Below, piece by piece: positions 7,667 to 25,602 of a DNA stretch of 45,410 nucleotides. Position 1 is the stretch's first letter. Each line of letters starts with the position of its first letter. The translations under genes and the position numbers were made by a program. The notes beneath the pieces are model-generated. The model made no database searches and was not told the origin of the DNA. It saw only the letters and a list, made by a program, of their open reading frames with translations. Source of the stretch: Thermococcus sp. (GTDB lineage: Archaea; Methanobacteriota_B; Thermococci; Thermococcales; Thermococcaceae); contig WAKU01000101.1 in NCBI GenBank assembly GCA_015523195.1, forward strand, positions 1 to 45,410, read 5' to 3'.

Positions 7667-8854
7667 ATGCGCTGGAGCGAGATTCCGAGGGGCGCTAAAG
7701 CCTACATCCTCTACCACACGCTCATTTCTCCGGGCCTGATAGTCTGGATACTCTTCCCGCTCTACCTCATGGAGACCGGCTACTCCATCCTTGAAGTCGG
7801 TGCCTTCTTCACAGCGGTCAACCTCGCCTCGATTCCCTTAACGTATCTCTTCGGCAGGGCCTTCAACCGCTGGGACATCAAGAAGGGCCTCATCGCGATT
7901 GACGTTCTCGATGGAATTGCCTACGTTCTCTACGGCCTCGCCAAAGGTGCTATCGCTCCTGTTCTGCTCTTCACCGGGAGGGCGATAGAGAAGCTTTCAA
8001 CGATGCTCTACCCGCTCTACCGGGCCTACGAGCAGATAATTTATCCCGAGGACAAATATGAGGAGGTATTCGCATGGCATCTCAGATTGCCGGAGATGGC
8101 CCAGGTTCTCACCTTTCCCATCATGGGCTACCTTCTCGGCTACATCTACCCCGGTCCGGAGAGCTACCGCTGGGCCTTTATCATCTTCGGCCTCTTCTCA
8201 GTTTTTACCGTCGCCTACATCTGGCGCTTCCTCCCATCGGTCGGAAAGGAGGAGAGGCTAACACCGGAGGGCTTCACCTTCAAGGCCGGTGAGTTCAGGC
8301 TCCTCATAGTTTTTGAAACCTTCATCACCCTTGCCTGGGCCCTCGCGCCCGAGATGGTGCTAATCAACTACGTCGTCTTCGTGCTGCATAAAACTGTCTT
8401 CGAGGTAACCCTTGTGGCGGTTGCCAGCGGTCTTGCCTCGATTTTAGGAACCTACGCCAGCGAGCGCGTTCCAAAGGGAAAGGGTTTTCAGGCCCTTGGG
8501 GTGGGCATGGCCATAAACGCTCTTTACACCCTGGTCATGGTCCTATCACCGCCCCTGTGGATTGTTCTGCTTGTGTATGCGCTTGGCGACTTCGGGAGCA
8601 GTTTGGGGTTTCCCTTCTACCGCTCCTGGATGTTCAGGCTGATTCCGAAGGAGAGGGCGAGTGAGTTCCACGCGGCGATATCGAGCTACCGGAAGGTCTT
8701 AGGCATGTTCACACCACTCGTAGCCGGGGGCCTGGCGAGCTTACACGCGACGCTGCCCTACGCTGCCAGTCTGGCCTTCTTCGTCCTCACCGGAGTGATG
8801 TTCGCGGTGCTCTCAAGAAAGGAAAGGAACTTCCGATCACCTGCCCCTCCTTAA
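7667..8854 (+). CDS. MFS transporter
   Basis: A 395-residue integral membrane protein with about twelve hydrophobic segments in two halves, joined by a charged loop near residues 195-210 (SVGKEERLTPEGF). Loop motifs such as GRAFNRWDIKKG after the second helix resemble motif A of the major facilitator superfamily (G-x-x-x-D/R-R). It may export or import a small molecule; position beside a glycanase and sugar-transport operon suggests a sugar or related compound but nothing in the sequence proves this. ATG 7667 follows GGTGAGGAC, with a TATA-like TTTTTAAAA near 7620. Its 3' end overlaps the convergent GH5 gene by 18 bases. Confidence 0.85.
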   Translation: MRWSEIPRGAKAYILYHTLISPGLIVWILFPLYLMETGYSILEVGAFFTAVNLASIPLTYLFGRAFNRWDIKKGLIAIDVLDGIAYVLYGLAKGAIAPVLLFTGRAIEKLSTMLYPLYRAYEQIIYPEDKYEEVFAWHLRLPEMAQVLTFPIMGYLLGYIYPGPESYRWAFIIFGLFSVFTVAYIWRFLPSVGKEERLTPEGFTFKAGEFRLLIVFETFITLAWALAPEMVLINYVVFVLHKTVFEVTLVAVASGLASILGTYASERVPKGKGFQALGVGMAINALYTLVMVLSPPLWIVLLVYALGDFGSSLGFPFYRSWMFRLIPKERASEFHAAISSYRKVLGMFTPLVAGGLASLHATLPYAASLAFFVLTGVMFAVLSRKERNFRSPAPP

Positions 8855-10471
8855 GGTCAGCAGGTACGCGAGAAAGACCGAGGCGATGAGAGCAGCGATC
8901 AGGTACCCGGCCAAGGGGCGGTGGGAGAGGGATTTGCCTCTCCCTGGTGACGTCTCCGGTGCGGACGATGTGGGAGACGACGTGACGGAGGCCTTGCCTC
9001 CGGTGCTGCCCCCAATGACGTACAATTTCAGCTCTTTTCTGAGCGTCCGGTTTCCTTTTCTGGCCACTATGTAGAACGTTATGCTCCTGTTGAGCGTCAG
9101 GTTCATCTCGCCTTCCCTTGAGCGGGCGAAGTTGGAATCGACGACCTCGCCGCTCGTGTACCAGTATATCCTGACCTTTTCCCCGGCCCCGAGGACGGAA
9201 GTCGTTGCGTTGCTTTCCAGGATTATGTAAAGAGGTTCCTCAAATCTCGGATCGGACGCTTTGATCAGACGGTATATGAGCCTCATTTTCTCCCAGTTCA
9301 CGGTCTTCCAGTCGTCGAGGAAAATCCCTCCCGTGTCCCCGCTCTCCGGGTTCAGACACCAGTAGAAAAAGTTGTAGATCCTTTTCCTCAGCAGCCACTG
9401 GACGAAGGAGTCCTGCCAGACTTTATCCAGCCCCCTGTAGGTTCCACCCCACTCGCCGATCGCGATGGTGTAGTTCAAATCGGTAAGGTAGCCAAAGTGT
9501 GCGTTCCAGATGGCGGGCATGTTGGCAGGGAAATCGGGGCTTTTGAAGTAGTTCATCATATAGACGCTCGGCCCGTACACGTGTGGGGAATAGACGACCT
9601 TCCCCTTGGGCAGTCTGACGGGATATTCCCTTACCCCCATGAGGTTCTCGCCCCAGAAGGTCCACCATCCGTTTTTCTCGATTTCGCTGTCTATCCCCGG
9701 CACGTGGGTGTACTGGGTTCCCTCGACGAAGATGAGCCACTGGGGCGCTACCTTGAGTATCTCCCTTCCAGCCCTCTCGGCAAAGAGCCGGAAGTCCCTC
9801 TTATCGCCCGTCCCCCATCCAGCCGGGCCGTGGGGTTCGTTCTTCAGGTCGGCCCCAATGACGTTGGGGTACTTTCCAAACGTTCTTGCGAGAAACAGCC
9901 AGTCTTTGATGTACTGCTCCTCCGTATAATTTTCGGTGTACCACAGGGGCTCTATTTCGGTGCAGCCTATCCTGTGGTAATCGAGGAGGACGTAAAGTCC
10001 GATGGTGTTTGCGTACGACACTATCTTTTCCATGATTTTTAGGGATGTCAGGTTTCTGAGATCTGGGTTTAGGGCGTAGTTTATCCTTCCGGGCATGGGC
10101 TTTGTGCCGGGCCTTATGGACTCGCTGCAGAAGGGGAGCCTTATCGCATTAAAGCCGAGCTTTTTGACGTCGTCGAGGATCCCCTTCCAGTTCCTTTCAT
10201 TGAGGCCGTAAACCACGTGGTCTTTGAGCTCAAAGCCAAACCAGCTGACACCGTGTAGATAGAGCGGTCTCACCTCGCCCGTTGTGAGATTTTGAACGAA
10301 GATTGTACCGTTTTCGGCGGTGTAATTTACCCCAGGGGAATCGGCGGCACCTGCGGGGGGCAGGTGGATGAGCGGAAGGAGCAGGATCAGGGAGATCAGG
10401 GTAACCTTTAGAAGGGCGAGAAAAGGGGGGCAGGTTGATTCGCTCCTGCCCCCTTGGTGGGTGGGTGCCAT
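8837..10471 (-). CDS. membrane-anchored GH5 endo-glycanase (cellulase-type)
   Basis: A 544-residue exported enzyme. A hydrophobic signal (LLKVTLISLILLLPLIHL) is followed by a GH5 domain with the acid/base Glu in ADLKNEPHG (E212) and the nucleophile in IAIGEWGG (E340); LLDYHRIG and SPHVYGP are further active-site blocks. After it come a beta-sandwich-like domain (about residues 420-495), a Ser/Thr/Pro linker, and a C-terminal membrane helix with Arg tail (GYLIAALIASVFLAYLLTLRRGR). The plan matches the Pyrococcus horikoshii endocellulase EGPh. It should cut beta-1,4-glucan or glucomannan outside the cell and feed the adjacent transporter. ATG 10471 is preferred; the ORF-track ATG at 10606 adds 45 residues of low-complexity, non-protein-like sequence. 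Confidence 0.85.
   Translation of the reverse strand: MAPTHQGGRSESTCPPFLALLKVTLISLILLLPLIHLPPAGAADSPGVNYTAENGTIFVQNLTTGEVRPLYLHGVSWFGFELKDHVVYGLNERNWKGILDDVKKLGFNAIRLPFCSESIRPGTKPMPGRINYALNPDLRNLTSLKIMEKIVSYANTIGLYVLLDYHRIGCTEIEPLWYTENYTEEQYIKDWLFLARTFGKYPNVIGADLKNEPHGPAGWGTGDKRDFRLFAERAGREILKVAPQWLIFVEGTQYTHVPGIDSEIEKNGWWTFWGENLMGVREYPVRLPKGKVVYSPHVYGPSVYMMNYFKSPDFPANMPAIWNAHFGYLTDLNYTIAIGEWGGTYRGLDKVWQDSFVQWLLRKRIYNFFYWCLNPESGDTGGIFLDDWKTVNWEKMRLIYRLIKASDPRFEEPLYIILESNATTSVLGAGEKVRIYWYTSGEVVDSNFARSREGEMNLTLNRSITFYIVARKGNRTLRKELKLYVIGGSTGGKASVTSSPTSSAPETSPGRGKSLSHRPLAGYLIAALIASVFLAYLLTLRRGR
10426..10453 (-). other. strong hairpin at the 5' end of the GH5 gene
   Basis: GGGGGCAGG and CCTGCCCCC are perfect 9-base arms around a 10-base loop. 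Read on the transcribed (minus) strand the hairpin is followed by CCTTTTCTC. It lies 18 bases inside the predicted coding region, before the signal peptide. It may slow translation or act as an attenuator between the transporter genes and the glycanase gene. Confidence 0.4.
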
Positions 10472-10606
10472 GGCCAGCGGCTGCCACGGGGAACGTGAAC
10501 CACTCCGGCAGGATGCATCACTCGGTAACCGGGAGTCGTGATGGGTTACAGACCCTTCGGGTTTCTCCTGTGGAGCCCTCCCGACTTCTTCAGGTGTCGC
10601 GTGCAT
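10472..10606 (-). other. GC-rich spacer between oppF and GH5 gene
   Basis: A 135-base spacer with no evident TATA box. It contains several short self-complementary parts, for instance AGACCC-TTC-GGGTTT near 10551 and CGGGAG/CTCCCG flanking it. An ORF runs through it in frame with GH5 but its residues look non-protein-like. It is probably a structured leader within a co-transcribed operon. Confidence 0.35.
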
Positions 10607-24791: not shown

Positions 24792-25463
24792 TTACCGACC
24801 CTGCCCCCCATTCCCTGACTCAGGCGACCCTTTAAATGTCAGCTCGGACAGGAGGGCGCCCTGGAGCTTCCTCATGCAGGACGGGCAGTAGGAGAGGGGC
24901 CTCCTGTCCCACTCCCCCATATCAGAGGGGGGGTTCATAACGCACTCGTTGGGGCAGTGCTCAAGACCGAAGCTGTGGCCGAGCTCGTGGAGGACGCCTT
25001 TAAAGATGCGGGCCTTCATGAGCTCCTTGTTGGGGCTCTCAAAGGGCTTAATCGAGAGAACCATTATCTTCATCCCGAGGATGTCCTGCTGGAAGCCGAG
25101 GAACTTCTCGTAGATGTGAAAGTACTGGTTTCTCGAAACCAGGGGAAAGGTCGTCAGGCCGAAAATGCGCCTCATAGGGAAGCCGGCCTCACCCTGACCC
25201 TCCTGAAGGAGCCTCGCATAGAGGGCCTCTATTACGGCCTCGAGGGGGTACCCCTTGACCTGCCCTCCCTCAACCGGTATGTTTATCAGGTAGCCGGGGC
25301 CAACCTCAAGCTTCCCGAGGTAGACGAACCTCGTAGGAAGCCCGTTCTCAGCGAGGTAGCGGTTGAGTTCATCAAAGACCTCGAATATCAGGTTCTTGTC
25401 CGTGAAGTTCCCGATGTAGGTCGCCCCAATGTAGGTCATCCTGCGGTCGTCGGGATGTGGCAT
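24792..25463 (-). CDS. amzA: archaemetzincin metalloprotease
   Basis: A 223-residue zinc protease. The metzincin site HELGHSFGLEHC, followed by NECVM (the Met-turn) and the CPSCMRKL cysteine pair, is the archaemetzincin signature; the four Cys bind a second zinc. It cleaves peptides in the cytosol, substrate unknown. A TATA-like TTTAATAA at about 25485-25493 lies 25 bases before ATG 25463, so the message is probably leaderless and the TTG at 25469 in the track is not used. The same AT-rich patch also serves the H/ACA RNA side on the other strand. Confidence 0.92.
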   Translation of the reverse strand: MPHPDDRRMTYIGATYIGNFTDKNLIFEVFDELNRYLAENGLPTRFVYLGKLEVGPGYLINIPVEGGQVKGYPLEAVIEALYARLLQEGQGEAGFPMRRIFGLTTFPLVSRNQYFHIYEKFLGFQQDILGMKIMVLSIKPFESPNKELMKARIFKGVLHELGHSFGLEHCPNECVMNPPSDMGEWDRRPLSYCPSCMRKLQGALLSELTFKGSPESGNGGQGR

Positions 25464-25534
25464 GTTCAAAGGAACCCCGTGAGGTTATTAAATTTTGTGG
25501 GCAAAGGTCTTAAGGATGAACGCCAATACCAACC
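25464..25534. promoter_or_regulatory. shared promoter region of amzA and the H/ACA RNA
   Basis: The AT-rich patch GAGGTTATTAAATTTTGTGG (around 25478-25497) has TATA-like sequence on both strands. Leftward it would start amzA without a leader; rightward it would start RNA about 20-25 bases before the guide RNA. TCTTAAGG near 25508 is another rightward TATA candidate that would place the start almost exactly at the guide RNA 5' end. Confidence 0.45.
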
Positions 25535-25602
25535 GCCCCCGGGAAACCGCGGCGGATGAGCGACAGGCGAGCTGTGATTCCGCTTCGCTCCCCGGGGGCA
25601 CA
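25535..25602 (+). ncRNA. H/ACA box guide RNA, predicted to pseudouridylate 16S rRNA
   Basis: A single H/ACA hairpin. Lower stem GCCCCCGGG (25535-25543) pairs perfectly with CCCGGGGGC (25591-25599), directly followed by the ACA box (25600-25602). Between them is an internal pocket: 5' arm AAACCGCG (25544-25551) and 3' arm TTCGCTC (25584-25590). The upper stem GCGGA/TCCGC (25552-25556 and 25579-25583) carries TGA motifs (ATGAGC, TGTGAT) as for a kink turn, capped by ACAG-gcgag-CTGT. The guide arms pair with GAGCG-U-N-CGGUUU, matching archaeal 16S rRNA near E. coli position 940; the same arms occur in the H/ACA RNA of published archaeal RNP crystal structures, as I recall. Confidence 0.85.

Follow-up and report, generated by a model that had tools for sequence, protein, structure and literature searches.

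In the 45,410-nt stretch of Thermococcus DNA analysed here (the window), a short structured element lies between the divergent amzA gene and a putatively secreted cellulase-family (GH5) gene, which raises the question of whether it represents a guide RNA, a regulatory leader of the mRNA that follows, or both. A preliminary description had proposed an H/ACA guide RNA in the leader of a secreted protein gene. Scanning of the whole window with Rfam cmscan assigned exactly the interval of that description, positions 25535–25602 on the forward strand, to family RF02796 (Pab160), with a score of 88.3 bits as compared to a gathering score of 47.4. The alignment spans model positions 1–68 of 68 (E = 1.7e-14, calculated over the whole window), and RF02796 is the sole family at or above its cut-off anywhere in the window, where none of the other Pyrococcus/Thermococcus H/ACA sRNA families scored. 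This full-length match bears out the classification as an H/ACA guide RNA. In all probability, close to certainty, the element represents the Thermococcus version of Pab160, a box H/ACA guide sRNA. It is predicted to be transcribed from its own promoter and to target a uridine in 16S rRNA. As such, it is an already known feature, that is an ordinary, standard copy of a housekeeping guide RNA. An annotation based on ORFs would miss it, as had been anticipated, but a routine Rfam scan does show it.

The comparison across relatives that had been suggested revealed Pab160 in 85 of the 94 genomes of the family, with each of the six genera represented; of the 74 high-quality genomes, 72 carry it. 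Beyond the family, 0 of 10 genomes from the same class contained a match, and Methanocaldococcus jannaschii was the single positive case out of 14 control genomes. Searching the contigs of the source genome with Rfam returned a single copy above the cut-off; a second match (C47, 34.8 bits) fell below it and was discarded. The genome also encodes Cbf5 (453.7 bits) and Nop10 (94.7 bits), which are core protein partners of H/ACA RNAs. In T. kodakarensis, a tractable species, deletions of cbf5, nop10 and gar1 are already available (PMC6138745).

Table 1. Positions of the Pab160 RNA, its elements and its neighbours in the window.
Feature	Position	Strand	Basis
amzA, archaemetzincin (Peptidase M54), divergent upstream neighbour	24792..25469	-	PF07998, E 3.2e-53
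Divergent TATA box of amzA, separate	25485..25496	-	sequence; placed by eye
BRE/TATA box of Pab160, AAAGGTCTTAAGG	25503..25515	+	conserved upstream columns; placed by eye
Pab160 box H/ACA guide sRNA (RF02796), predicted mature RNA	25535..25602	+	cmscan, family occurrence, covariation
Lower stem, 5' strand, opposite 25591-25599	25535..25543	+	sequence, Rfam consensus structure, compensatory changes
5' guide AAACCG, complementary to CGGUUU on the 3' side of target U	25544..25549	+	invariant core, 16S complement
Upper (GA) stem, 5' strand, opposite 25578-25584	25551..25557	+	Rfam structure; G-C/C-G and A-U/G-C exchanges
K-turn (L7Ae site)	25557..25577	+	conserved alignment columns; L7Ae role as described in the literature
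Upper (GA) stem, 3' strand	25578..25584	+	Rfam structure, alignment
3' guide UCGCUC, with CGCUC complementary to GAGCG on the 5' side of target U	25585..25590	+	invariant core, 16S complement
Lower stem, 3' strand	25591..25599	+	sequence, Rfam structure, alignment
ACA box	25600..25602	+	invariant in 56/56 distinct RNAs
GH5 (cellulase family) gene, N-terminal signal-like segment	25615..26679	+	PF00150, E 1.6e-13

The RNA displays the features of an archaeal box H/ACA RNA: two stems around an open pocket, a K-turn, and an ACA directly 3' of the lower stem (Table 1). A perfect 9-bp lower stem, a two-arm pocket, a 5-bp upper stem with UGA/UGA elements and an ACA right after the stem had been noticed beforehand, and all of them were recovered. 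The pocket arms read AAACCGC (25544–25550, including the C that follows the 5' guide) and TCGCTC, and the upper stem comprises five Watson-Crick pairs with G-U and U-U at its ends. The K-turn, which is the L7Ae-binding element of archaeal H/ACA RNAs, consists of UGA at 25557–25559 and UGA at 25575–25577 (G-A/A-G), with a short G-C helix and a loop between them. The ACA box is separated from the upper stem of the Rfam structure by 15 nt (25585–25599); for archaeal H/ACA RNAs, a distance of 14–15 nt has been described as a rule (PMC4652768).

Alignment of 79 distinct upstream regions revealed an A-rich/TATA block from -34 to -23, a pyrimidine at -1 and a G at +1, with conserved columns at -32 (A, 1.35 bits), -27 (T, 1.23 bits) and -10 (A, 1.54 bits). 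From this layout, the expected transcription start is the initial nucleotide of the RNA, which in the window is G25535, preceded by the promoter-proximal A at 25525. The spacing of these promoter elements stays fixed with the M55 peptidase, the Hef helicase, amzA or other genes as upstream neighbour, as read by tblastn with named proteins (clustering of ORFs was dropped because of spurious ORFs). Conservation of the promoter regardless of the neighbour argues for Pab160 being an independent RNA gene. The proposal that the RNA and amzA share one promoter patch had to be revised, as two separate TATA boxes are arranged back to back (Table 1).

On the downstream side, the ATG of the GH5 gene follows the RNA after a gap of 12 nt, as described beforehand. 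The designation as a secreted-protein leader is appropriate at this locus, but it does not hold generally, as Pab160 is free-standing and has unrelated neighbours in most relatives. This GH5 is present in 12 of the 94 family genomes, and in six of these carriers (G000, the genome analysed here, as well as G055, G067 contig 27, G059, G065 and G047) it follows Pab160 immediately and in the same orientation. The gap between RNA and ATG measures 12 nt in G000, 13 nt in G055 and about 20 nt in G047 (read by eye). Gaps of 12–20 nt leave no space for a separate promoter, which makes read-through into GH5 likely in those three genomes; transcription of GH5 by read-through from the Pab160 promoter is plausible at this locus. 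No fewer than two Thermococcus lineages, one comprising the present genome and its sister G055 and the other G047, may have a secreted GH5 that lacks, or has lost, a promoter and relies on read-through from the housekeeping guide RNA gene, such that a single transcript would yield both the guide and, upon trimming at the ACA, an mRNA with a short leader. We give this scenario in its entirety an even chance.

Guide RNA and GH5 mRNA could also be separate transcripts, with the RNA being terminated or degraded at its 3' end and GH5 being expressed from a cryptic promoter within the RNA gene. This constellation would agree with the situation in G059, G065 and G067 contig 27, in which, by eye, about 120 nt with TATA-like sequences precede GH5. 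However, the ~40 nt upstream of the ATG in the window correspond to the GC-rich 3' half of the RNA and contain no TATA-like sequence, and a conserved T-run terminator after the RNA was not found in the family alignment, leaving two transcripts a possible but rather unlikely arrangement.

It is far less probable that the structure serves mainly as a cis-regulatory leader of the GH5 mRNA, that is as an L7Ae-binding K-turn element, and not as a guide RNA. Such a role could be suspected because the ATG is so close that a separate promoter finds no space, and K-turn elements in 5'UTRs of T. kodakarensis have been proposed as possible cis-regulators (PMC4247193). However, 82 of the 94 family genomes lack this GH5 and yet nearly all keep Pab160, the neighbours vary (M55, Hef, amzA, others) whereas the guide cores are invariant, and GH5 relatives occur without the RNA nearby, which makes a primary function as a leader highly improbable. 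Since GH5 is restricted to 12 of 94 genomes and has relatives elsewhere without Pab160, the tandem of the guide RNA and GH5 is, judging from gene order, a local, lineage-restricted addition. Joint movement of RNA and GH5, suspected because GH5 is found inserted between Pab160 and Hef in three distinct upstream settings, was considered and rejected. GH5 also resides far from the RNA in G022, G025, G033 and G044, and relatives are found in other MAGs without Pab160, so that the two do not form an obligate unit.

Several further observations concern GH5-like genes. The relative in G022 (locus L147, 2595–2889) lies near a CRISPR array (DR6 repeats) and far from Pab160. Loci L202 and L203, from MAGs labelled Desulfurococcales, contain close relatives of the GH5 protein of the window (67–68% identity), suggesting horizontal transfer or mis-binning; Pab160 was not found in the fetched stretches of these loci. 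In the window itself, a second secreted protein resembling a GH5-type cellulase by eye is encoded at 8837–10606 on the reverse strand, and a copy of the guide target motif on the antisense of this gene (9041–9053) is probably a chance occurrence.

The conservation of the RNA was assessed in an alignment of 80 family RNAs, of which 56 are distinct. Standard pairs are formed by 95.1% of the stem cells, and two-sided changes occur at 10 of the 16 pairs of the lower and upper stems. When the 3' partners were slid by 1–3 positions, 39.5–76.9% of the cells were paired and two-sided changes were seen at 0–3 pairs, and re-dealing the 3' letters in 500 shuffles gave at most 89.1% paired cells. The guide cores (A11, A12, C13, C14 and G15 on the 5' side, positions 52–56 on the 3' side) are invariant in 56 of 56 distinct RNAs, as are the K-turn residues A25, U41, G42 and A43, while G24 is present in 51 of 56. 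The fold of the free RNA is only modestly better than that of shuffled sequences (z = -1.73), and the thermodynamic MFE structure adds pairs across the pocket. This unremarkable energy is owed to the GC-rich region, and given the weak z-score we set folding energy aside as evidence; it is the family model, the covariation and the target match that place the Pab160 assignment well beyond chance. A degenerate or inactive pseudogene copy can practically be dismissed, as the departures of the window RNA from the consensus, which might hint at decay, are confined to the apical loop and the upper stem, where the change is compensated (C19-G48) and common to eight other distinct RNAs, while every position of the guides, the K-turn, the stems and the ACA box is preserved in what is the only copy of the genome above the cut-off.

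Which uridine would Pab160 address? The arms predict 5'-GAGCG-U-N-CGGUUU-3' as substrate, a sequence present as GAGCG-U-G-CGGUUU in 16S rRNA. The source assembly (86.6% complete, 115 contigs) is devoid of any 16S, and therefore the 16S loci of relatives were used. The site, at least as GAGCG-U-N-CGGUU, was detected in 60 of 60 such loci from five of the six genera, with a few of these loci being parts of one and the same fragmented 16S, and the complementarity of the arms to archaeal 16S rRNA that had been claimed is thereby confirmed. Pairs of letter-shuffled arms matched 16S strictly in 1 of 20,000 cases and in 12 of 20,000 when G-U pairs were allowed; the duplexes of the authentic arms with 16S amount to -9.2 and -6.3 kcal/mol. 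The target U occupies position 898 in a 1486-nt archaeal 16S match. By alignment, it is the counterpart of E. coli U950, a residue of the small-subunit head, which is close to, albeit not identical with, the location around 940 given previously. Initially, mafft alignment with an E. coli 16S record returned position 945; this record contains Ns and absent bases, and the number was corrected to 950 by means of the known positions of m2G966 and m5C967 in E. coli 16S. S922 is reportedly one of the listed P. abyssi target sites.

Despite a completeness of 99% each, two genomes of the same genus, G035 and G054, are devoid of Pab160, and they nonetheless keep the 16S site (loci L184 and L186; 16S loci L037 and L034). 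A lax Rfam search of both genomes retrieved no degenerate Pab160, a guide-core pattern gave 9 matches in the two genomes versus 8 for the reversed control pattern, none of them with H/ACA anatomy, and the sequence after Hef contains no such RNA. These genomes probably represent natural losses of the guide, and retention of the 16S site without the RNA indicates that Pab160 is dispensable in some lineages. They may therefore serve as natural knock-outs in studies on the role of the predicted pseudouridine. The opposite situation is encountered in G067, which carries two Pab160 copies, L131 (contig 27) and L085 (contig 43), with GH5 beside the weaker one (68.5 bits). As contamination of G067 is 6%, a mixed assembly is the simpler reading.

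Taken together, the sequence evidence suggests the following course of expression, RNP assembly, modification and read-through. Transcription of Pab160 would begin at G25535 under the control of its own promoter, whereupon L7Ae would bind the K-turn and Cbf5-Nop10-Gar1 would attach along the stems and the ACA box. The open pocket would pair with 16S rRNA on either side of one uridine in GAGCG-U-G-CGGUUU (E. coli U950), allowing Cbf5 to convert U950 in the paired pocket into pseudouridine. The GH5 gene directly behind Pab160 would probably receive transcription from the promoter of the RNA, and trimming at the ACA end would give rise to a GH5 mRNA with a 12-nt leader that includes a Shine-Dalgarno-like sequence. 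The tandem of Pab160 and GH5 may thus provide a simple case for how archaeal guide RNAs are cut from transcripts that also bear an mRNA. The main outcome is the correct recognition of a known guide RNA from sequence alone.

Pa160 (Pab160) belongs to the H/ACA guides of P. abyssi and has Pf9 as its ortholog in P. furiosus (PMC4652768). Pf9 was used in PDB entry 2RFK, and a Pf9-Pf6 chimera in 3HJW, 3HJY and 3LWO (PMC4652768), so that the proposed link to a crystallised H/ACA RNA with these arms proved right. The window RNA resembles Pab160/Pf9 in its full-length match to the model, the 9-bp lower stem, the pocket, the K-turn, the ACA and the guide cores, and differs in the letters of the apical loop, the compensated C-G pair in the upper stem and the GH5 directly downstream. 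In T. kodakarensis, each of the H/ACA guides has an ortholog in Pyrococcus (PMC4652768), and 11 potential snoRNAs reside within 5'UTRs (PMC4247193). As in the latter, a guide RNA precedes an ORF in the same orientation and is presumably released by processing; unlike those loci, the pair of Pab160 and GH5 is found in few Thermococcus genomes only. With Pab21, Pab35/HgcF, Pab40/HgcG, Pab91, Pab105/HgcE and Pab19, finally, the RNA has RNP machinery and architecture in common, whereas guide sequences and targets differ.
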